A stretch of DNA of 56,485 nucleotides from Bacteroidota bacterium (lineage in GTDB: Bacteria > Bacteroidota > Rhodothermia > Rhodothermales > JABDKH01), in the NCBI GenBank assembly GCA_020437385.1, contig JAGQWL010000109.1, positions 1 through 56,485 of the forward strand. The letters run 5' to 3'. The notes below the pieces were generated by a model that worked only from the letters and a program-made list of their open reading frames with translations, did no database searches and was not told where the DNA came from. The translations under genes were made by a program, and so were the position numbers. This document shows positions 9,994 to 52,238 of this stretch, piece after piece; position 1 is the first letter of the stretch; the number at the start of each line of letters is the position of its first letter.

Positions 9994-10066
9994 CGATCTG
10001 CGGGGGTTGGTTGGGTTCAGACTCGGTTCCGGTCCCGGCGCCTGCGCGTCGGGTACGGTGAGCGTG

Positions 10067-11590
10067 TTATCGCTGCACAACGAACTGGCGCGTCGCAACC
10101 TGACTGCCAGATTGTGCGCGTGCCAGATACAAACCATTCGTGAGTTCGGAGATGTCTATCGACAGCTCAGTCTCGCCGGCAATCACGCCGTCGTAGACGG
10201 CTTTCACTTTCCGCCCGAGGAGATCGTAGACCGAAAGTGATGCCGAACCGGTGGCGCCGCCATTAAGCCGCACGTTGACGCGCTCCGTTGACGGATTCGG
10301 ATAGAGATCGATCGACAGCGACGTGCCGTCGGCCGTCGGCTCGATGGAAGTAAACTGATCGAATAGATCGTGTGCCGGCCAGGACGTGAAGTTCGCTTGC
10401 GCATTCCAGTAGAGTGCGTCGACCTCTCCGTTGAACTGACTTAGTTGGTTTCCGGGTCGCGTGTTGAAGAGGAAGACAAAGTTGACACCGTTGTTGATGC
10501 GTGCCCACATTGCAGTCGCGCCGGGGATCGAGCCCATGTGCCACCAGTTGTCGAACTGGTTTGTCGAAAATCCGAAAGCATATCCGGCACTCTGCGGAGT
10601 TGTACTTGTCATCGCCGCGATTCCCGAACTGGTGAGAATATCGGGTCGTGTCGAAAAGCCGTCCACGGCCGTCAGGAGTCGAAGCAGGTCGACGGCGCTG
10701 GCGGCCCAGCCGCCGTGCGAATCAAACGTCTCGACATTCATCCCGCCGTATGTCCAGGGTACGCTCGCGCCGGTGCCGTAGACACTCGTAACGTTCGGTG
10801 CCTGCGGATAGTCGTAGTACAGTACTTCACCCGGCAGTCGGTTCTCGAGCAGCGAGTTGCCCATCTTGATCGAGGTGATACCAAGTGGCTCAAACAAGGC
10901 GGTACGACAGTAGTCGGCATACGACATACCGGTCACCTGCTCAATAACGCGCCCGAGAATCAGATAGCCGAGATTTGAATACTCGTATGCCGTTCCGGGC
11001 TCCCTCTTGAGTGTCTGCTTCTGGAGGTAGAACTCAATCTTGTCCTCCGGGCTGTGAGGAAGTCCGAAGTGCATGATTGATTCCTCGTAGATGTCGGCAA
11101 ATACCGGATCTCTTCCGTTTCCAAGCGTTCCGAATCCCGCCGTGTGGTGAAGCAGGTCGCCGACAGTAATGTTCTGCATTCGGACATCAACAAGCGTGTC
11201 ATATCGCGAACCGGTGAGAATCCCTCCTTCGCCGAAGACCTTGTCGGCGGTCGAGAGCAATCCCTCCTCGATCAGCTTTGCCATTGCGATGCCCGTAATC
11301 GACTTGGAAACACTGGCGATTCGAAACAGGCTGGTGGGCTCGACGGGGATCTGATTGTCAACATCCGCATAGCCGAAGCCCCGTGCATAAACGAGTCGTC
11401 CCTGGTACGTGACCGCAGCGGCGCCGCCCGGTACGTCCCATTGGTTCATGAACGTGTTGACAACGTCATCAAGCGCTGACATCTCCGGGACTGCTGGACC
11501 CGTTTGAGCTGACGTGAGGCGGGGATTCGCGCACAGAAGCGACAGTATTGCAAATACCGATGCTGATACGAGGCTACGCGGAGTACTCAT
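10067..11590 (-). CDS. Beta-lactamase-fold serine hydrolase with T9SS sorting domain
   Basis: A 507-residue secreted protein: signal peptide (residues 1-28, ending TSAQ), a class C beta-lactamase/esterase domain (about 35-400), and a T9SS type A C-terminal sorting domain (about 425-507). The SxxK nucleophile motif is SVSK in FRIASVSKSITG, and the YxN motif is YEYSNLGY. The tail begins LYPNPSTERVNVRL and contains SVYDLLGRKV and GLYLARAQSGS, as in proteins exported and attached to the surface by T9SS. The substrate is unknown; such domains include D-aminopeptidases, carboxypeptidases and esterases. The truncated subtilase lies just downstream on the same strand. Confidence 0.92.
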   Translation of the reverse strand: MSTPRSLVSASVFAILSLLCANPRLTSAQTGPAVPEMSALDDVVNTFMNQWDVPGGAAAVTYQGRLVYARGFGYADVDNQIPVEPTSLFRIASVSKSITGIAMAKLIEEGLLSTADKVFGEGGILTGSRYDTLVDVRMQNITVGDLLHHTAGFGTLGNGRDPVFADIYEESIMHFGLPHSPEDKIEFYLQKQTLKREPGTAYEYSNLGYLILGRVIEQVTGMSYADYCRTALFEPLGITSIKMGNSLLENRLPGEVLYYDYPQAPNVTSVYGTGASVPWTYGGMNVETFDSHGGWAASAVDLLRLLTAVDGFSTRPDILTSSGIAAMTSTTPQSAGYAFGFSTNQFDNWWHMGSIPGATAMWARINNGVNFVFLFNTRPGNQLSQFNGEVDALYWNAQANFTSWPAHDLFDQFTSIEPTADGTSLSIDLYPNPSTERVNVRLNGGATGSASLSVYDLLGRKVKAVYDGVIAGETELSIDISELTNGLYLARAQSGSQVATRQFVVQR

Positions 11591-42601: not shown

Positions 42602-43059
42602 GGCTGGACCTCTGCATAATTACCAGTCTGGTTGCGTCCTCACGCCAGGTTCGCCGATGGCCCGCGTGCATTCGGGCCACCGACGATACTGCCTGGCGCT
42701 TCGCGGAGGGCGCTACCATTCAAGACACAGAGTTGCCCAAACGTAACCTCGCTCGGGCCGAAAAAAGTTCAGATCGAAGGTGTTGTTTGAAAAACAGACA
42801 TTTTTGAGTCATTTTTTGGCCTGACACGCAGACGCAGCGGGCTCGAAGGCGTCGTTCTGTGCCGTGGAAAGGGGTAAGCCGGTGAGGTGGATCGGTAGCG
42901 TTCGACGCCGCGGTCGGCATTTTGCCGTCACGATTATCATACCTGACCTTGCTGGTTGCTCAACCGGAATGCCGGAAGTTCACGGTGTCCAATCACGGTG
43001 TCCAATCACGGTGTCCAATCACGGTGTCTAATCACGGTGTCCAAATCTGGAGATACCCG
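42602..43059. other. Intergenic region before the ankyrin gene
   Basis: No gene is visible in these 458 bases between divergent genes. Near the 3' end lies a five-copy 13-bp tandem repeat; AT-rich GTTTGAAAAACAGACATTTTTGAG around 42783-42807 could contain promoter elements, and CGGCA-TTT-TGCCG at 42914-42926 is a small hairpin. A ribosome site (GGAG) lies seven bases before ATG 43060. Confidence 0.55.
42980..43044. repeat. 13-bp tandem repeat, five copies
   Basis: TCACGGTGTCCAA is repeated five times head to tail; only the fourth copy differs (TCTAA for TCCAA). It ends 15 bases before ATG 43060, between the likely promoter and the ribosome site or overlapping the promoter. Copy-number changes would alter spacing by 13 bases. 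Confidence 0.9.
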
Positions 43060-45162
43060 ATGCGCGCACTCCCATACTGTCGTCCGTCACGTTACCGGTG
43101 CCTGCTCCCGACGATGCTCATCGCGTTGCTGGCACTCGCGACCGATTCCCGGGCACAGGACCGACCGTCGCACGATGTAGATGAGGAGCGGGCAGAAGCG
43201 CTCCGCAGCATACTTGACGACATTCCGCCGACCCGGCTTGGATACGAGTCGGCCGTCAGGGAAAGCGAGGCCCTTCGCGACCTCGTCTTTTTTCGCGCTG
43301 AGATCGCTGCGCGTCACGGTGACATCGGAATACTCGACAGTACACTCCGCGCGATCGAGTCTCTTGGCGGCAGTGCGGATTCGCGACTGGGCAAGCGCGT
43401 ATTCGAGTTTCCCACCGGTGTGGACGACACCGTTGAGCGCCGGATTTTTCTCCTCGACTCGGTGTTGCCTTTTCTGTTTCCGGCATGGGAAGCGGCTACG
43501 TACAACTGTGGTCCGACCGCTCTATTCACCCAGACAATCTATATCCAGGGAGTGCTCTACACGGGTGAGCAGCAGTCGTCGTATGTCTGTCGATCCGGGG
43601 CACTCAGCGTCGCACATGCGGTCCGCAAGATTGTTTTCGCTGACAGTTCCGGAACGAGTGCGGGCGTCGTGACCAGCCTCGAGTTCGATTCGCCATGGAT
43701 GAACGTTTATTATCCGGATCGCGAGACCTTCACGGTAACGCCATCCGATATATCCGCCCACACGCTGCTCGCCGCTGCCGCGGTCACCGGACAGATCGAC
43801 GTGATGGCAGTCCTGGTGGATCGCGGTGCTTCCATCGACCTTCCATCCGATTCCGGATATACTGCGCTGCACCTTGCAGCCCTCGCCGGACAGAACGCCT
43901 CGACATCGTGGCTTCTGGAAGCAGGAGCGGATCCGAACGCGGCTACCGATACCGGCCGCACGCCGCTTCACTCGGCCGTCGGGCGCGGTGACGCTGAGTT
44001 GATCCGAACCCTCGTTTCGTTCGGCGCCAGTGTTGACAGGGTTGCCGACGACGGTGACACTGCCTTGCTTGCAGCAATTCGATCAGGTAGGGCGGATCTC
44101 GTACGGGTACTTCTGGACCTCGGCGCCGACCCGGAGATCAAGGATGCGAATGGGAATACGGCACTGATGTTGGCAGTCAGTCGCATGCCGCAGTTGATAC
44201 CGGCGATGGTCGAGGCCGGCGCGAACCCGAACACCAAAGGTCCGAGTGACTGGACAGCCCTGCACTTCGCGGCCGAATCGGGGGTAACGGATGTAATCGA
44301 CGATCTCCTGCGCCTCGGTGCGGACCTGTCTCTTCGGAGCGAACGGGGGAGAACCGCGTTGTCTGTTGCGGCGGCGCACGCCAACACGGATGCGGTGCGT
44401 CTGCTGATCGACAACGGAGCAGAAGTGGACGCGGCAGACGACGAAAGCAACACACCGTTGATGTTGGCGTCCGGCGCCGGCAGCGCCCGGACGGTAGAAG
44501 TGCTTCTCCGATCCGGAGCTTCACGGAAAGCGCGAAATGAAGACGGCAAGCGTGCTGTGGACGTCGCGAAGTCCCGTAAGCGCATACCGGTTCTGCAGCT
44601 TTACAAGCACATCGAGCCGGTGCATGTCGCGTTTGCGAAAGCGTCGGTAAATCTCGCCCGGCTTGAACACCCGCAGCACGAATCATCTCCGGGGGTCGAC
44701 CTTGGAATGTCGCTGGCGGTTCGAGTGCAGCGGCGCATCCGATTGCAGACCGATGTCGGTTTGGCGTTTCGGGCGACTGACCCCGTTGAAGAGGGCGAGA
44801 TCCAGCTTCCGCCTAACGGCGACTGGTACTACTGGCTTACGTCAGTCGACGTGCGCCCGCAAATCCGATACGCAATCGGCAATCCGTATCGGCACCACCT
44901 CTACGTTCTTGGAGGTGTGGGGTACAGTGCTGTTCTCGACAACGTTCTGAGAGACTGGACCAAAGACAACGAGGACGTTGACGTACTCGATACAACCGAT
45001 GATTCCTTCGTGTCGATAAATGCGGGTCTGGGTGTTGAGTTTGCCAGGTCTCGAAGCGTCTGGACTCTGGAACTTACCTACATGCGAGTGCCCTCGTTTC
45101 AGCTCGATCGATTCGACGGCGCACTCGGTTCGTGGGGCTTCTCCATTGGATTCGGGAAATAA
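43060..45162 (+). CDS. Exported ankyrin-repeat protein fused to an outer-membrane beta-barrel
   Basis: A 700-residue protein. The signal peptide ends in SRAQ; a helical N-terminal domain of unknown type has two Cys (YNCGPTAL, SYVCRSG). About nine ankyrin repeats follow (residues ~225-520, for example GYTALHLAALAGQ, GRTPLHSAVGRGD, GNTALMLAVSRM, DWTALHFAAESG). The last 170 residues look like a small outer-membrane barrel of alternating hydrophobic strands ending in WGFSIGFGK. Ankyrins are normally cytosolic; here they should face the periplasm or the outside. Function unknown. The start ATG has GGAG seven bases upstream. Confidence 0.88.
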   Translation: MRALPYCRPSRYRCLLPTMLIALLALATDSRAQDRPSHDVDEERAEALRSILDDIPPTRLGYESAVRESEALRDLVFFRAEIAARHGDIGILDSTLRAIESLGGSADSRLGKRVFEFPTGVDDTVERRIFLLDSVLPFLFPAWEAATYNCGPTALFTQTIYIQGVLYTGEQQSSYVCRSGALSVAHAVRKIVFADSSGTSAGVVTSLEFDSPWMNVYYPDRETFTVTPSDISAHTLLAAAAVTGQIDVMAVLVDRGASIDLPSDSGYTALHLAALAGQNASTSWLLEAGADPNAATDTGRTPLHSAVGRGDAELIRTLVSFGASVDRVADDGDTALLAAIRSGRADLVRVLLDLGADPEIKDANGNTALMLAVSRMPQLIPAMVEAGANPNTKGPSDWTALHFAAESGVTDVIDDLLRLGADLSLRSERGRTALSVAAAHANTDAVRLLIDNGAEVDAADDESNTPLMLASGAGSARTVEVLLRSGASRKARNEDGKRAVDVAKSRKRIPVLQLYKHIEPVHVAFAKASVNLARLEHPQHESSPGVDLGMSLAVRVQRRIRLQTDVGLAFRATDPVEEGEIQLPPNGDWYYWLTSVDVRPQIRYAIGNPYRHHLYVLGGVGYSAVLDNVLRDWTKDNEDVDVLDTTDDSFVSINAGLGVEFARSRSVWTLELTYMRVPSFQLDRFDGALGSWGFSIGFGK

Positions 45163-45181: not shown

Positions 45182-47209
45182 CTACGCGACGGCTACCTGA
45201 TCGGCCGACCAGCCAAGTTCCTCTGCCTTGGCGCGCGCCATGGCAGGGATGTCTTCTGATAGTAGCGACTCGTGAATAATCTGGATGCCGAGCGCGTGAT
45301 TGATCAGCGCATCGAGTTGGACAAGCGTTGATCGAGGCGTTTCGTCAGAGTAATACAGGTCCAGGAGCCGACCGACGTTCTTGTGATCGAGCACACCGGC
45401 GTCGGCGATGTGATCGGGCGTGAGGTACGTCGCCGCCAGTTCTTTCATCGCGTTGAGTTTATCATCGTCGGTATGCGCAGGAGGTGCCATGAAGGCAAAC
45501 TTCTCCCGCTCGTAGAGTTCAGTTGGCAGAAGTCCCTTCATTGCCTCGCGTAGAACGTACTTCTCAGTCCGGCCCTTGATTCGGTATCGCGGCGGGATCG
45601 TGGCCGCGTACTCTGCAAGATGGTGGTCGAGAAACGCGGGTCGGGCCTCCATCGAATTGGCCATGTCGACGCGGTCGCCACCCCATGTCAGGATCTGGCC
45701 CTCGAGCATCGTTTTGATCCAGACGTATTGGGCAATGTCGAGCGGATGTCGGTCCTCGATCTGGCTCCGGTCGAGCGCGTCGGCAATCGCGCTGCCCGGT
45801 GAATAGCCGTCGAGTGCTCCTCGGATGTGCGGCGACAAGAGTGCCGGCACGCGAACGGCAGCGGCGAGCCATGGCTGCAGGCAGGAAGGGGTAAACCCGC
45901 AGAGAGCTGTCAAGGCCGGATCGTCTACTGCCTCCGCAGCAAGCATGGCGCCGGAGAACAACTCGTTCGATTCGGAAAGCATTCGCGTCCAGGTTTCCCG
46001 TTCGGTCGCCGGTAACGAGTCGAGACCGTACAGAAACATGTCGCGCCGGAAACTGGGATAGCCCGCAAACAGCTCGTCCGATCCCTCGCCCGTTACCACA
46101 ACCTTGTAGCCGCTTTCATGCACGTGCCTGCTCATGAGCAGTTTGGCGACGCCCAGGGTATTGTAGATGGTGCGTTCGGTATGCCAATGCGTTTCGACGA
46201 AATGATCGTACAGAAGTGAGGCGTCGACCCGAAGGATGTCCTGCGCAGCGCCCACCGATTCGGCCATCCGCGTTGCGATGGCGCTTTCGTCGTAGTCGTC
46301 GTGGTCAAATCCGATCGTGAACGCGCGAACGGAGTCCTGCCGGCAAGCCGAGGCAAGACCAAGAATTGAACACGAGTCGATGCCGCCCGAGAGATAACAT
46401 CCAACAGGCACATCCGCTACGAGACGCAACTGAACAGCCTCGAGGAGTCTTGCACGCGTTTCCTCGATGCACTCCTGTTCAGACATCACCGCGCGCGCAT
46501 CCTCGTGCCTCGGGAACGGCATATCCCAGTAGGCCTGATCGGAAATCTTGAATCCGTTCTCACCGCGTTGGATAACAAGCGCGTGACCGGGCTGGACCTG
46601 ATTCACGCCCGCATACGGCGTGGTCCCCGGCACAATCGTCTGCATGAGCTGATGAAACACACCCTCGTTCGAGAAATTCCGATCAACTTCCGGATGGGCA
46701 AAAAGAACCTTGACTTCGGAGCCGAAAACAATGGTGTCGCCCGCCTGCGTCCAGTAGAGCGGCTTGATCCCAAAGCGGTCGCGGACGAGAATCAGTCGGT
46801 CGCGCTCGCGGTCATAGAGGGCAAAGGCAAACTCTCCGCGCAGGTGCGACAGCATGCCGAACAGATCCAGCCGCGGATAGAGGTGCAGGAGTAGCTCGGA
46901 GTCCGACTTCGTCTGGAATCGGGCTCCCCGAGCGGTGAGATCGGCACGTATTCGTTGATAGTCGTAGAACTCGCCGTTGTGAGTGGTCATCAAACGGCCG
47001 TCCGACGAGGTGATCGGCTGGTTACCCGAATCGTGAAGGTCGATGATAGCGAGGCGGGCGTGACTGAAACCGACTCCGGCATCGTCCATCGATGCGACTC
47101 CGAAGCCGTCCGGGCCACGGTGATGCTGGATCGCCGCCATCGAGACGAGAAGATCCGGGTCAATAGGGCGATTTCGGTCCAGGTTGATATATCCGGCTAT
47201 GCCGCACAT
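45182..47209 (-). CDS. asnB: Glutamine-dependent asparagine synthetase-like amidotransferase
   Basis: A 675-residue class II glutamine amidotransferase with an ATP-dependent synthetase domain. Cys2 of MCGIAGY is the glutaminase nucleophile; HHRGPDGFG, ARLAIIDL, NGEFYDY and SDSELLL complete the glutamine site. The synthetase P-loop is LSGGIDSCSI (about residue 270), and TGEGSDELFAGY is present. It activates a carboxylate with ATP and transfers ammonia. AsnB usually makes asparagine, but relatives amidate other acceptors. It is the last gene of a tight operon (six bases after the carbamoyltransferase), so the substrate may not be aspartate (inference). Confidence 0.9.
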   Translation of the reverse strand: MCGIAGYINLDRNRPIDPDLLVSMAAIQHHRGPDGFGVASMDDAGVGFSHARLAIIDLHDSGNQPITSSDGRLMTTHNGEFYDYQRIRADLTARGARFQTKSDSELLLHLYPRLDLFGMLSHLRGEFAFALYDRERDRLILVRDRFGIKPLYWTQAGDTIVFGSEVKVLFAHPEVDRNFSNEGVFHQLMQTIVPGTTPYAGVNQVQPGHALVIQRGENGFKISDQAYWDMPFPRHEDARAVMSEQECIEETRARLLEAVQLRLVADVPVGCYLSGGIDSCSILGLASACRQDSVRAFTIGFDHDDYDESAIATRMAESVGAAQDILRVDASLLYDHFVETHWHTERTIYNTLGVAKLLMSRHVHESGYKVVVTGEGSDELFAGYPSFRRDMFLYGLDSLPATERETWTRMLSESNELFSGAMLAAEAVDDPALTALCGFTPSCLQPWLAAAVRVPALLSPHIRGALDGYSPGSAIADALDRSQIEDRHPLDIAQYVWIKTMLEGQILTWGGDRVDMANSMEARPAFLDHHLAEYAATIPPRYRIKGRTEKYVLREAMKGLLPTELYEREKFAFMAPPAHTDDDKLNAMKELAATYLTPDHIADAGVLDHKNVGRLLDLYYSDETPRSTLVQLDALINHALGIQIIHESLLSEDIPAMARAKAEELGWSADQVAVA

Positions 47210-47215
47210 GGTGGG

Positions 47216-48328
47216 TTACTGGGTTTGAGTTTTTTCGTTGACTGTTGCCGCAGGAAGCGGGACGTCCACAACCTGTGAGATCCGGCTGGTGATGCACGTG
47301 AGCAGGGCCATCCGGATGAATACGGCTCCCCTGGCTTGCGCGAAGTACCAGTTGTGTGGGGTAGAGTCGAGCGTGACATCGAGTTCGGGTCCGCGGGCAA
47401 GCGGATGAAGAACGATCGCTCCTTCCTTGAGAGGCGAGTCGGCCGTCAGTCGCAAGTCGCCGGTCAACCGTTCGAACGTGTCGCCGACCCACGCGATCGA
47501 GTTGATGTAAACGATGTCGAGGTCCGGCAGAACGCTGGCAAGATTGCTCTCCGTATTCAAGTTGAGCCCGGACGCTTCGAGCTCCTCACGCTGACCGTCA
47601 TCAAACAAGTCGTCATCGTGATTGATGACGACCACCTCCTCGATGGCGTGCGATATCATGGAAAGCAGAATCAGCAGGCTGCGCACGGTTCGCATACGGG
47701 CCGGCGTGCCGATGATGCCGATGCGCACCTTTTCCTTCGGGGACGCGGTGGCGAGATCCGGCCGCCACTTGAAGATCGCGTACAGGTCCGCCAGCGCCTG
47801 GGTCGGATGTTCGTCGATCCCGTTGCCGGCATTGATGATCGGGATGCGCAGGCCGTTCAGCGTCTCATAAATCGCACCCTCACTGTTGTCGCGCAGCACC
47901 ACGAGGTCGCCATAGCTGCTGAACATCTCTGCGACATCGCGCAGGCTTTCACCTTTGGCGATACCGGTTGTCAGCGGATCCGTAATCGAGATGACGTCGC
48001 CCCCGAGCCGGTGCCAGGCACTCTCGAAAGAGAGGCGCGTTCGGGTGCTCGGCTCGTAGAACGCCGTGATCATGATCTTGCCGGAAAGCGGCTGATGAAG
48101 CAGCGTCGGCTGCCGCTCCATGTCTGCTGCAAGTCTGGAAAGCTGGACGAGCGTTTCCCGGTCAAATTGACGTGCCGACACAACGTGTCGGTTCGCCAGG
48201 TTCAACAGCGGCTCGGCGTTTTCACGAACGGCGTCAAGGAGCGCGAGGGGTCGTTCAATTCCGGACACGCCGCTTCGCACCTCGATCGGTCGTTCGAGCA
48301 GCGTGGGGTCGGTTGTAACTTCTACCAT
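47216..48328 (-). CDS. Aspartate carbamoyltransferase-like enzyme, substrate probably altered
   Basis: A 370-residue ATCase/OTCase-fold protein. Carbamoyl-phosphate residues are kept: FYEPSTRTRLSFESA, KGES (80s loop), LRDNSEGA, GNGIDEHPTQALADLY and RTVRSL. In the second substrate site the E. coli TRVQKER stretch (Arg229, Gln231) reads NSIAWVGDTFER, so both aspartate-contacting side chains seem lost; HPLPR is HPLARG. It may carbamoylate another amino compound. Its start overlaps the stop of the 39-residue peptide gene by seven bases (GAGG ribosome site upstream). Housekeeping pyrB with pyrI or pyrC is not nearby. Confidence 0.85.
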   Translation of the reverse strand: MVEVTTDPTLLERPIEVRSGVSGIERPLALLDAVRENAEPLLNLANRHVVSARQFDRETLVQLSRLAADMERQPTLLHQPLSGKIMITAFYEPSTRTRLSFESAWHRLGGDVISITDPLTTGIAKGESLRDVAEMFSSYGDLVVLRDNSEGAIYETLNGLRIPIINAGNGIDEHPTQALADLYAIFKWRPDLATASPKEKVRIGIIGTPARMRTVRSLLILLSMISHAIEEVVVINHDDDLFDDGQREELEASGLNLNTESNLASVLPDLDIVYINSIAWVGDTFERLTGDLRLTADSPLKEGAIVLHPLARGPELDVTLDSTPHNWYFAQARGAVFIRMALLTCITSRISQVVDVPLPAATVNEKTQTQ

Positions 48329-48441
48329 AGCGAACCTCGCTTCCAGTCAATTACCAGCATGACGAGGAGAATAATGGGTGCCGCGGCGCTGACGATCAGC
48401 GCCGCAAGGACAATTGTTTTAAGCAGTGCGGCTGATATCAT
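48322..48441 (-). CDS. 39-residue single-span membrane peptide, probable symporter accessory protein
   Basis: The frame ATG 48441 to TAG 48322 encodes 39 residues: a hydrophobic helix of about 25 residues (LLKTIVLAALIVSAAAPI then ILLVMLVI) followed by a DWKRGSLW tail. It has a strong ribosome site (AGGTGG about five bases before ATG), starts 13 bases after the symporter stop and overlaps the carbamoyltransferase start by seven bases. The gene order and the hydrophobic-helix-plus-WxxG ending resemble small accessory subunits annotated next to SSS symporters in other bacteria (by memory). Confidence 0.72.
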   Translation of the reverse strand: MISAALLKTIVLAALIVSAAAPIILLVMLVIDWKRGSLW

Positions 48442-48454
48442 CTTACCACCTGTG

Positions 48455-49909
48455 TTATGATGTCTGAGCCAGGGGCGAATCCGCCGGTTCAACCTCTTCT
48501 CGTAGCAGATCCCAGTCGAACGGAGCCGGATGAATCAGCGTAGTCAACAAGACGGTCGTCATCGAAACAGCGGAGCCGACAAGAGCCGCCACATAGAATC
48601 CAATGATGAAATAGGCGGAGAGTCCCGCGAGGCTGCCAAGCACCATCGCCATCGTCGCACCGGTCGGGTTCGTTTTGCGCCAGTAGAGTCCGGCGGCGAT
48701 CGGCCAGATCGTTGACGCCACAAACGCGCCGGTGAAATGCAACAGACTACCCAGTGTCGTCAGGTTGAGCATGCAAAGCAGCCACGTGCCGAAACCGAGA
48801 ATCAGGATTGTTCGCGATGCGGCTCCTCGCATCTGTTTCGGAGTCGCGTTGGGACGAATATGCTTGTGATAAATGTCTTCGACAATCAGGTCGCTCGTCG
48901 CCGCCAGCAGTGAGTCGAGGCTGGACGCCAGCGCCGAGAAGACGATGATGAAGACAAGGATCGCGCCGGCTTCACCGAGCAGGTTGGCCGCCATCAGCGG
49001 ACCAACCATGTCCGCTCGCGGAACGTTGAAGCCGAGGGCCGGAGCACCGAGCGCGATAAATCCTGCTGCGATCGGAATGGGCGTCCAGAAGAGTCCGGCG
49101 ATCAGGTAGGCCTTGAAACCGACGCCCTCGCCGAAGGCGAATGCCCTGCTCCACCACACGTTTGAATGAAAAATCTCGCCGATGCCGAAAAGCAGATTAT
49201 TAAACAGGAACATGATCGCGGCGGGCATCAGGAAGTTGAGAAGCTCGGGGCGATCCGTTGCCAGCGTATCGTGAATTTCGTCGAATCCGATGTAGCGGAT
49301 GGTCAGAAAGCCAAGTACAACAATGCCTGCGATGATGACGATCGTCTGAACGAAGTCGGTGCCGATGACCGCACGGAGGCCGCCGAGCAGCGTATAACAC
49401 ACGCAGATGCCAAGAATGACGGTCATTCCGATCCAGTACGGAATGCCACTGAGTGCCTGGATGAGGATGCCACCGGCCATGCCAAGGCTGATCAGCCACC
49501 CGCCGCCGTAGACCAATGAAATCACGAGAAACACACGCCACGCTGTCGTGCCGAATCGCAGCCGAAAGAAGTCGCCGCTGGTAAAACCTCCCGGCATCAG
49601 TCGCCGAATCCGTGCGGCCATCGGTGCGAAGAGGAAGAGGCCGACAGCGCCAAGCGAATAGCCGAGCATTCCCCAGATTCCGAGCTGGTAGGTGAGTTGT
49701 GGCGCGACCATCGTTGTGTTGGACGTGACCCACGTCGCCATTGCGGTTGCCGTACCGAGGGCCAGGCCGACACTCCGGCCGGCGAGCATGTAGTCCTCAA
49801 GCTCGTTCGCATTGCGACCCCACCACCAACCAAGCAGCACCCAGACAATGCTGAGCACAACGAGTATCAGTCCGGCAACGCCCGGATTCAGAATTGCTTC
49901 ATTGACCAT
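48455..49909 (-). CDS. Sodium:solute symporter (SSS family), possibly urea/ureide type
   Basis: A 484-residue carrier with about 13 membrane segments. Conserved blocks are DYMLAGRSVGLALGTATAMATW (AGR start), GGFTSGDFFRLRFG, LLGGLRAVIGTDFVQT and SALASSLDSLLAATSDLI. The arrangement is closer to the urea/Dur3-like branch than to SGLT sugars (by eye). The ATG at 49909 has a perfect AGGAGG five bases upstream, inside the end of the fn3 gene (11-base overlap). It probably takes up the product of this operon or a precursor (inference). The small peptide gene directly follows. Confidence 0.88.
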   Translation of the reverse strand: MVNEAILNPGVAGLILVVLSIVWVLLGWWWGRNANELEDYMLAGRSVGLALGTATAMATWVTSNTTMVAPQLTYQLGIWGMLGYSLGAVGLFLFAPMAARIRRLMPGGFTSGDFFRLRFGTTAWRVFLVISLVYGGGWLISLGMAGGILIQALSGIPYWIGMTVILGICVCYTLLGGLRAVIGTDFVQTIVIIAGIVVLGFLTIRYIGFDEIHDTLATDRPELLNFLMPAAIMFLFNNLLFGIGEIFHSNVWWSRAFAFGEGVGFKAYLIAGLFWTPIPIAAGFIALGAPALGFNVPRADMVGPLMAANLLGEAGAILVFIIVFSALASSLDSLLAATSDLIVEDIYHKHIRPNATPKQMRGAASRTILILGFGTWLLCMLNLTTLGSLLHFTGAFVASTIWPIAAGLYWRKTNPTGATMAMVLGSLAGLSAYFIIGFYVAALVGSAVSMTTVLLTTLIHPAPFDWDLLREEVEPADSPLAQTS

Positions 49910-50423
49910 CAGAACCTCCTGTGGCGTCGGGACGGGTTGATTTCGACGTACGTGTTTCGTCCCGGCTGTTGCCGCCCAGGATCAAACCAAGCGTTGCGAA
50001 GAAGACGACGGCACCGATTCCGAGGAACGTGAAGGCGCGTCCGAGGGAGTGGTGCGCAACAGTGACTGCGTGCACATTACTGTAGGCACCGTCATCGCCA
50101 AGGCGAATTCGATAGAGGTAAACACCATTCGGCTTTCCGCTGACAGTCGTTGCGAGATCGGGGCCCCGATAGACAAGCGTCTGGTTTTCGAACGAGCGGT
50201 TGTCTGACTCAAAAAGCTCGAAATCCGGAGTGACATCGCCGGGTAGATCGGCACTCCAGGACAACGTGTAGTACCCCTCGGTTGAGAGCTGGCTGGCGGA
50301 GCCGCTATTCAGGATGACCGGGATGTCAGCGCCGTGGTCGTCCGCGGATGTTTGCGCACCGGCGAGCCGGATGGGGAAAAGCAGCAGGGCGACGCCCAGC
50401 CACACGAGCCTGTTCCGATACAT
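49899..50423 (-). CDS. Exported fn3-like protein with C-terminal membrane anchor
   Basis: A 174-residue protein: signal peptide (ending RLAGAQ), one fibronectin type III-like domain (about 35-125; SLSWSADLPGD-type strand, YRIRLGDDGAYSNVHAVTV), and one membrane segment (AFTFLGIGAVVFFATLGLIL) with a short charged tail. It should place the domain outside the inner membrane. It overlaps the symporter gene by 11 bases, so it is likely a partner of the symporter or of its assembly (inference). No enzyme motif. Confidence 0.78.
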   Translation of the reverse strand: MYRNRLVWLGVALLLFPIRLAGAQTSADDHGADIPVILNSGSASQLSTEGYYTLSWSADLPGDVTPDFELFESDNRSFENQTLVYRGPDLATTVSGKPNGVYLYRIRLGDDGAYSNVHAVTVAHHSLGRAFTFLGIGAVVFFATLGLILGGNSRDETRTSKSTRPDATGGSDGQ

Positions 50424-50507
50424 GAATCTCTACTTGTCACATGAATCCTTTGCCGCACCTGCCGTCACGGCACCACGCGGGAATGCCGCCCCGCCCCGGG
50501 CAGCAAT

Positions 50508-50837
50508 TCACGAAGCCGTTTCCGACGCCTCGATTTCGATCACCTTTTCGAGTGCTGTGACAACGATCCTCCCGTTGCCACGCTGTTCCGTCTGACCGGC
50601 CTGCAGGAACAGGTCAACGATCGAGTCGACAGTTTCATCTTCGGCGTGTACAACTACAAGCGACGTTGGCGTCATATCGAGTGCGAACTCCGTTCCCGAG
50701 AAGACGTCAGCGTGCGTCTTTACACTGCTGAATTCGTTCGCTGGAACGACACGGAATCGTTCGATCCCGGCCTCCACGAGCGCGCTTTTGATGGCTTCGA
50801 CAGTGAAGGGCTTGACGAACGCTTCGATCTTTTTCAT
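50508..50837 (-). CDS. Divergent PII-family regulator
   Basis: A 109-residue protein aligning without gaps to GlnB over its first 50 residues (MKKIEAFVKPF, EALVEAGI-like). Differences are striking: T-loop Tyr46 and Tyr51 are both Phe, Gln39 is Val, Gly37 and Arg38 are Ser, and in the C-terminal half Lys90 is Arg and Arg101/Arg103 are Glu (numbering of E. coli GlnB). It therefore cannot be uridylylated at Tyr51 and may not bind ATP/2-oxoglutarate in the usual way. Such PII-like proteins often sit next to and control transporters. Here the neighbour is an Na+ symporter. Confidence 0.87.
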   Translation of the reverse strand: MKKIEAFVKPFTVEAIKSALVEAGIERFRVVPANEFSSVKTHADVFSGTEFALDMTPTSLVVVHAEDETVDSIVDLFLQAGQTEQRGNGRIVVTALEKVIEIEASETAS

Positions 50838-50861
50838 CTACAAAATGGCTGGGTCGGCTGA

Positions 50862-52238
50862 CTAGTTGAGCTTCAGGTTCATCACACGTCGCTCCTGTCG
50901 GACGCCGTGCTGCCGATGTGTACCCTTTTCCTGCTCAAAGAAGAAACGCTCTCTCCCGAATGCCGGCTTCAGTTGCGACAGCCACGTAGCGTTGGGATCA
51001 AAGCGTGCGAAGAACGGTCGCTTGACATGGTCGGGATTGCGGGCTTGCAGGAACGATAGTACGAATACGCGTTCACCACGAATTTCGGAGATGCCCTCGA
51101 CGGCAACCTTGCCCGGGAAAGCTGACATCGACGGTCCGCGGACGGTTCGTGCCAGGCCGGACACCTGCTGGAAGGCCTTCTGGTAGATTTCCCACGCGTC
51201 GACCAGCGGAACGGCGAAATAGTGTTTGGATCCCGTGTCGCGTTCTACAAACATATAGTAGGGGACGCACCCGAGACGTACCTGTTCCTTCCACATCCGT
51301 GCCCAGACGGTCGATCTGTCGTTGATATTTCGAATAAGCGGCGACTGGGTTCGAATCTGCGCCCCCGTCGACCGCACCCGGCGAATCGCTTCATGCACTG
51401 CGGGAGTCGCCAGCTCCTGCCAATGGTTGAAGTGTGCCATGATCGCAAGATGCTTGCCGGAGCGAACAATCTTGTCGAAGAGACGCATGATGTCGTCAGA
51501 ATCCTTGTCTGTCACAAAGCGGTAGGGCCAGTATCCAAGCGACTTCGTACCGATTCTGATGCTCTGAATATGCTCAAACTCGGGTTCGAGGAGCGGCTCG
51601 ATGTAGCGAGCGATGTTGCGGGCGGACATCACCATCGGGTCGCCACCGGTGAACAGAACATCGGTGAGTTCGGTGTGCTGCCGGATGTACTGCTGGAACC
51701 GTGCGGATTCGTCGGTCGCAAATTTCAGGTCGTTCATACCAACAAACTGCGGCCACCTGAAACAGAACGTGCAGTACGCATGACACGTCTGGCCATTGGA
51801 CGGAAAGACCAGGCAGGTTTCGCGATATTTGTGTTGAATCCCCGGGACGGCTTCGCCCTCCAGTCTGGGCACATTGGCGGTCATCTGCCCGGCAGGATGG
51901 GGATTCAGGTCAAGCCGGATCTCTCTCGCGATTCGATCCAGATCCGCCTTCGGGAGCTCCCGTTTCACTGCATCGGCCATCTTATCGAAGTGCGTCGCAC
52001 GCAGCATTTCCTTCTGCATGAACGTGAGCTGGAAAACGGGATCGTCAGGAACGTTTGACCAATCGATCAATTCGTCGACGACGTAATTGTTGACTCGAAA
52101 GGGCAGAACGCGCCCGACCACCTTCAGTGCAAATTGTTCGTCGTCACTGAGAAGACCGAACTGCGGCAGTTTATCGATGTTGTGGATGCCGTAGAAGCGA
52201 GGCTTGCCTGGCGTCCCGATATCTGTTCTTGGTCTCAT
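50862..52238 (-). CDS. KamA-family radical SAM 2,3-aminomutase-like enzyme
   Basis: A 458-residue radical SAM protein of the lysine 2,3-aminomutase family, which moves an alpha-amino group to the beta carbon using SAM and PLP. The iron-sulfur motif is CHAYCTFC (Cys152, 156, 159), followed by FTGGDPM. The likely PLP Lys is K377 in FPGK. In the ungapped PYY...P block (326-344) the lysine-binding Asp293 of the clostridial enzyme is Arg333, and Asp330 before the PLP Lys is Ser; the substrate is therefore probably not lysine but perhaps glutamate/glutamine (inference). GAGAGGTGAGAA precedes ATG 52238. First gene of the operon. Confidence 0.85.
   Translation of the reverse strand: MRPRTDIGTPGKPRFYGIHNIDKLPQFGLLSDDEQFALKVVGRVLPFRVNNYVVDELIDWSNVPDDPVFQLTFMQKEMLRATHFDKMADAVKRELPKADLDRIAREIRLDLNPHPAGQMTANVPRLEGEAVPGIQHKYRETCLVFPSNGQTCHAYCTFCFRWPQFVGMNDLKFATDESARFQQYIRQHTELTDVLFTGGDPMVMSARNIARYIEPLLEPEFEHIQSIRIGTKSLGYWPYRFVTDKDSDDIMRLFDKIVRSGKHLAIMAHFNHWQELATPAVHEAIRRVRSTGAQIRTQSPLIRNINDRSTVWARMWKEQVRLGCVPYYMFVERDTGSKHYFAVPLVDAWEIYQKAFQQVSGLARTVRGPSMSAFPGKVAVEGISEIRGERVFVLSFLQARNPDHVKRPFFARFDPNATWLSQLKPAFGRERFFFEQEKGTHRQHGVRQERRVMNLKLN

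Follow-up and report, generated by a model that had tools for sequence, protein, structure and literature searches.

A core of five genes, encoding an FN3-like membrane anchor (fn3), an SSS symporter, a membrane peptide of about 40 residues, a carbamoyltransferase and an AsnB-like amidotransferase, has the same order and orientation in ten genomes belonging to two phyla. On balance, the reading that we favor is that this core is a putative system for the synthesis and recapture of an amino acid osmolyte with an N-carbamoyl group and a carboxamide cap, whose backbone would be glutamine or beta-glutamate.

In the window, by which we refer to the whole stretch of 56,485 nucleotides analyzed here (contig JAGQWL010000109.1), the core is part of an operon of seven genes located on the minus strand at positions 45182-52238. 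The host genome measures 4.69 Mb and is 93.7% complete, and its kinship to genomes of Saprospiraceae and Ignavibacteria points to Bacteroidota as GTDB defines the phylum. All seven ORFs are present, and they are listed below in their order within the operon.

50862..52238, minus strand: KamA-family radical SAM protein of a divergent subfamily, 458 aa (TIGR00238, match to 2a5h, invariant residues)
50508..50837, minus strand: PII-like protein, 109 aa (Pfam P-II, 39.9 bits, cut-off 25)
49899..50423, minus strand: fn3 anchor with a signal peptide, an FN3-like domain and a C-terminal membrane helix, 174 aa (ten loci, AlphaFold and Foldseek)
48455..49909, minus strand: SSS symporter, DUR3-like, 484 aa (Pfam SSF, 97 bits)
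48322..48441, minus strand: single-span membrane peptide with a C-terminal Trp, 39 aa (found in ten loci)
47216..48328, minus strand: carbamoyltransferase, ATCase-like, 370 aa (OTCace_N, 136 bits)
45182..47209, minus strand: AsnB-like glutamine-dependent amidotransferase, 675 aa (Asn_synthase, 285 bits; TIGR01536, a broad model, 411 bits, cut-off 267)

The gaps between these genes are 24 bases (KamA-PII), 84 bases (PII-fn3), 13 bases (symporter-peptide) and 6 bases (carbamoyltransferase-AsnB), while fn3 and the symporter overlap by 11 bases and the peptide and the carbamoyltransferase by 7. The ORF coordinates and family searches bear out the original prediction of seven genes separated by 6-84 bases, with two overlaps instead of the three that it counted. 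On the plus strand, positions 42922-45162 of the window hold a 746-aa ORF with ankyrin repeats, which is convergent with the AsnB-like gene and whose C-terminus has a weak match to an outer-membrane beta-barrel.

The distribution of the operon was studied from two of its genes. A scan of 85,000 genomes for homologs of the KamA protein gave 137 relatives, 80 of which were kept for locus reading; the rest of the cluster was present in only one of these 80 loci, that of the Lewinella MAG L092, and the neighborhood of the KamA homolog was consequently discarded as a guide to the core. With the carbamoyltransferase as the query, the 395 genomes searched in the phylum of the window gave the core only in the window itself. 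It was found in 5 of 298 genomes in the family to which the Lewinella MAG belongs, taken as Saprospiraceae, in 4 of 125 genomes of the Nitrosomonas family and, in a search of 40 genomes that have the KamA homolog, in N. marina Nm71 and Nm22. The ten core genomes are thus that of the window, five Saprospiraceae and four Nitrosomonadaceae (including Nitrosomonas marina Nm22 and Nm71), and the recurrence of the same order in two phyla is therefore not due to chance. In all ten loci, the membrane peptide has 39-40 residues and a C-terminal Trp, and the last 7 bases of its gene are shared with the beginning of the carbamoyltransferase gene. A search of plasmids with the carbamoyltransferase returned, among the matches listed, only ordinary carbamoyltransferases with less than 35% identity.

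The divergence of the symporter, the carbamoyltransferase and the AsnB-like protein is congruent, with correlations between pairwise identities of 0.97-0.98; the values are 0.83-0.90 when fn3 is involved and 0.70-0.82 when the KamA homolog is. Moreover, in the genome G814 the core is the closest to that of the window (57% identity in the carbamoyltransferase), and the KamA homolog is closest to those of Nitrosomonas, following the host lineage and not the core. Based on these correlations and on the split observed in G814, the five core genes travel together and the KamA homolog does not. The seven genes were accordingly rejected as one conserved unit: the KamA homolog adjoins the core in two of the ten genomes, and the PII gene is absent from the nine other core operons. 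The comparison of gene order across genomes that had been proposed as a check did not recover the seven-gene order elsewhere. Variations within the core loci were also observed. In G517, an insert of 2.9 kb with a 970-aa ORF that lacks any Pfam family separates the carbamoyltransferase from the AsnB-like gene (L155:6244-9156). In two Nitrosomonadaceae loci (L166 and L167), two different core lineages lie near similar TPR and TetR genes, as if one version of the core had replaced the other in place.

The best matches of the carbamoyltransferase are ATCases, and its score against the PyrB model TIGR00670 is 184.8 bits, below the equivalog cut-off of 237. In the alignment to solved ATCases, the residues for carbamoyl phosphate (STRT, Lys84, Arg105 and His134) are kept, and S94-T97, K125, R146 and H174 are invariant in the ten carbamoyltransferases of the core. 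The equivalent of ATCase Arg167 is also kept (R213), whereas the ATCase motif Thr-Arg-Val/Ile-Gln is replaced by Asn-Ser/Ala-Ile-Ala in all ten proteins, with the loss of Arg229 and Gln231, which we take to be the residues that recognize the aspartate side chain. As judged from these residues, the active site argues against aspartate as the acceptor, and the combination of a kept Arg167 with the loss of Arg229 and Gln231 fits an acceptor that carries a single carboxylate and whose side chain is neutral.

A similar pattern is found in the AsnB-like protein. The N-terminal catalytic Cys and the SGGxDS ATP loop are present, Met1-Cys2 and the SGGIDS loop being invariant, and a YNTL motif occurs in all ten proteins. 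On the other hand, Arg325 of the TTIR motif of E. coli AsnB, presumably an aspartate-binding residue according to the mutagenesis literature, is replaced by Gly or Ala in ten out of ten. The protein scores 302.9 bits against the amidotransferase model for N-acetylglutaminylglutamine amide (NAGGN), TIGR03104, and does not reach the equivalog cut-off of 570. The loss of Arg325 argues against aspartate chemistry.

It was stated in the original prediction that it would fail if the carbamoyltransferase and the AsnB-like enzyme acted only on aspartate; in a comparison limited to residues, those that recognize aspartate are lost from both enzymes in ten of ten genomes. The same losses bear on ordinary aspartate and asparagine metabolism, in which a second ATCase and the asparagine synthetase of the cell would share an operon with a transporter by chance. 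We regard this as very improbable, even though the AsnB-like protein is the only Asn_synthase homolog found in the 93.7% complete genome and passes the TIGR01536 cut-off, and the carbamoyltransferase has its best matches among ATCases. Besides the lost residues, the host genome encodes two other carbamoyltransferases, the PyrB-like one at L002 having an ATCase-type R-I-Q motif, and both enzymes stand in fixed association with the symporter, FN3 and peptide genes.

Among families with solved structures, the profile of the symporter gives its highest score to the DUR3 urea symporters, with 159 bits against 65 bits for the next one. The fn3 protein of the window has no Pfam match; the best PDB matches of its AlphaFold model are FN3 domains (Foldseek probability 1.00, E-value 6e-4), and it is conserved in the ten core loci as a partner of the symporter. 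We infer that the symporter is a Na+-coupled carrier of a ureido or amide solute with two small partners, the FN3 anchor and the peptide. The PII-like protein scores 68 and 63 bits against the canonical GlnB and GlnK equivalogs, whose cut-offs are 202 and 181. In an ungapped comparison with E. coli GlnB, a Phe stands at what we take to be the position of the uridylylated Tyr51, and the protein may be a non-modified relative of PII. Since none of the other nine core operons was seen to carry the gene, any control by PII would be a local feature of the window genome; of the regulation originally proposed, the PII-like gene in the operon stands, and its presence is private to the window among the ten.

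Some copies of the core are adjoined by genes with osmotic or hydrolytic functions. In N. marina, an Asparaginase_2/beta-aspartyl peptidase gene lies upstream and a gene for a 1180-aa MscK-type mechanosensitive channel lies downstream; in G814, an amidase of the hydantoinase/carbamoylase family (an N-carbamoyl-amino-acid amidohydrolase; 348 bits, cut-off 204) adjoins fn3. MarR regulators are found beside the core in two Saprospiraceae. Each osmotic or hydrolase neighbor belongs to one lineage and some may be there by chance, so they are only suggestive. The Rfam search covered the window operon and eight further core loci and gave no credible match there to a riboswitch or other RNA control element, the TPP and RNase P matches of L162 both lying away from the operon, and the counts from promoter and terminator scans were at the level of chance. 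A defense system was also considered and discarded, with no PADLOC match.

The urea-transporter affinity of the symporter, the PII gene of the window and the carbamoylase of G814 could also be explained by uptake and catabolism: the symporter would import urea or a ureido compound, the carbamoyltransferase would run in reverse, its carbamoyl phosphate serving as a source of nitrogen or ATP, and PII would report the nitrogen state. We consider this improbable. Every core contains an AsnB-like synthetase, which consumes ATP and glutamine, the PII gene is missing from the nine other core operons, and no urease-like or carbamate-kinase-like gene was recognized beside the window operon or in the other loci that were read by eye.

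The KamA homolog scores 131.7 bits against TIGR00238, under the cut-off of 199, and its best solved relative is the lysine 2,3-aminomutase 2a5h, which is also the best structural match of its AlphaFold model (pLDDT 88.6). Cys152, Cys156, Cys159, Arg161, Arg333, Ser372 and Lys377 are invariant in 41 sequences, and the protein has the features of lysine 2,3-aminomutase in the CxxxCxxC motif, the carboxylate-binding Arg134 (R161) and the PLP Lys337 (K377). However, Asp293 and Asp330, which serve the epsilon-amino group of lysine, correspond to the invariant Arg333 and Ser372; the Asp293 position was ambiguous by one residue in single-sequence HMMER alignments and was settled by a profile comparison and by the invariance of Arg333. 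Glutamate 2,3-aminomutase reportedly has Lys and Asn at these two positions (Ruzicka and Frey 2007). The pocket looks made for an acidic and not a basic side chain, and the protein is a candidate glutamate-type 2,3-aminomutase; its score of 93 bits against the glutamate 2,3-aminomutase (Eam) model TIGR04368, with an equivalog cut-off of 650, places it in a subfamily separate from Eam. In the AblA-like KamA proteins from the order of the window (alignment A2, L006-L034), an invariant Gln occupies the Asp293 position, and due to this residue they may not be lysine 2,3-aminomutases.

Two independent arrangements place the KamA homolog next to the core, upstream in the window and downstream in L092, and this gene also co-occurs with the core in genomes. 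In Saprospiraceae, 4 of 5 core-positive and 2 of 37 sampled core-negative genomes have it (Fisher p 6e-4). For Nitrosomonadaceae, where the count was limited to the core-positive genomes not found through KamA (G805 and G814), the values are 2 of 2 and 7 of 41 (p 0.04). The pooled values are 6 of 7 and 9 of 78 (p 7e-5), the core-positive genome in which it was not found being G697. A shared marine habitat could account for part of this co-occurrence. The shift of the amino group from alpha to beta that was part of the original prediction is favored by the co-occurrence and by the acidic-looking pocket, and it has become less certain given adjacency in 2 of 10 genomes and a gene that is normally found alone.

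Among the 80 loci, the KamA homolog is usually a stand-alone gene. In five of them (L056, L060, L061, L067 and L094, from four Marinospirillum and one MAG labeled Pseudomonadaceae), it lies at about 10000-11370 and immediately follows, on the same strand, a gene for an MscS-type mechanosensitive channel. In six diverse loci (L064, L088, L089, L099, L108 and L112), it is closely followed on the same strand by a class I/II aminotransferase gene. By itself, the stand-alone gene is a candidate for making beta-glutamate as an osmolyte, and in the core genomes it could likewise be a separate beta-glutamate gene that is merely near the core, which we judge rather unlikely. Its solitary occurrence, its place beside MscS in Marinospirillum and its inheritance apart from the core in G814 favor such a separation, as does the carbamoyltransferase, whose Arg167 equivalent and missing Arg229 and Gln231 are expected for a one-carboxylate, neutral-side-chain acceptor. 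Against it stand the two independent arrangements next to the core, the co-occurrence, and the result that no core carbamoyltransferase was found in 14 genomes from the family of an Ectothiorhodospiraceae MAG, a search without a positive control in which E. mobilis was not confirmed in the set. This result also weighs against the osmolyte reading that we favor, Ectothiorhodospiraceae being the group from which carbamoyl-glutamine amide is known.

In the osmolyte system that we favor, the carbamoyltransferase would transfer the carbamoyl group of carbamoyl phosphate to the amino group of an amino acid, and the AsnB-like enzyme would convert a carboxylate into an amide at the expense of glutamine and ATP, giving a compatible solute that is capped at both ends and has little or no charge. 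Re-uptake or scavenging of the ureido or amide compound would fall to the DUR3-like symporter together with the FN3 anchor and the small membrane peptide. Candidate acceptors are glutamine, beta-glutamate and beta-glutamine. Where the KamA homolog is present, it probably supplies a beta-amino acid backbone (beta-glutamate); glutamine as the backbone would instead lead to N-alpha-carbamoyl-glutamine amide. From the observed gene order, conservation, residue losses and co-occurrence, we infer the two chemical steps, their order, the acceptor, the direction of transport and the osmotic role. More tentatively, the joint product of the core and the KamA homolog could be an osmolyte that has not been described before, namely a beta-glutamate derivative with an N-carbamoyl and a carboxamide group (for example N-carbamoyl-beta-glutamine or its amide). 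These genes would then form the first set assigned to a carbamoylated compatible solute.

Nitrosomonas marina is a salt-requiring ammonia oxidizer from sea water. The presence of the core in this organism and in Saprospiraceae, the loss of aspartate-recognizing residues in both enzymes, the closeness of the symporter to urea transporters with solved structures, and the osmotic or ureido/amide-hydrolyzing genes that adjoin some copies strengthen the part of the original osmolyte or nitrogen-store proposal that concerns N-carbamoylation and amidation; the conserved unit of seven genes did not hold, and the beta shift is weakened. Carbamoylated osmolytes are known as compounds with no assigned genes in the literature searched, and the question can be tested directly, the core being compact, conserved and present in two N. 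marina strains that are in culture. If the reading is true, the core would allow a nitrogen-rich solute to be predicted from the genomes of marine nitrifiers and Bacteroidota. The stand-alone KamA homolog, found in many marine and halophilic bacteria, is a candidate source of the osmolyte beta-glutamate.

N-alpha-carbamoyl-glutamine amide is known from Ectothiorhodospiraceae (Ectothiorhodospira), and we know of no genes for it; its N-carbamoyl and carboxamide caps correspond to both chemistries offered by the core enzymes. To our knowledge, the NAGGN system includes neither a carbamoyltransferase nor an SSS symporter. Our literature search found no paper on the genes for carbamoyl-glutamine amide or on the osmolytes of N. 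marina, and PMC7824335 names this solute without carbamoyltransferase or asparagine-synthetase genes. According to the mention of Sagot 2010 in PMC13060819, AsnO makes the NAGGN amide. That system resembles the core in using an AsnB-type enzyme for an osmolyte with an N-cap and a carboxamide cap, and differs from it in that the N-cap is acetyl instead of carbamoyl and in that the AsnB-like protein of the window is below the TIGR03104 cut-off. In the AblA/AblB pathway for N-epsilon-acetyl-beta-lysine, as proposed for the window, a KamA-family aminomutase feeds an N-capped beta-amino acid osmolyte; however, the KamA homolog lacks the lysine-binding Asp positions and the operon has no AblB. Eam (TIGR04368) shares with the KamA homolog the KamA fold and the replacement of the Asp pair of lysine 2,3-aminomutase, by Lys/Asn in Eam and by Arg/Ser here. 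In some bacteria, ablA and eam are under the control of Na+ riboswitches (PMC9337991), an earlier example of aminomutase genes linked to osmotic stress. Finally, DUR3 is the closest solved relative of the core symporter, which differs from it in being bacterial, in its length of about 480 aa and in its constant association with the genes of the FN3 anchor and the peptide of about 40 aa.
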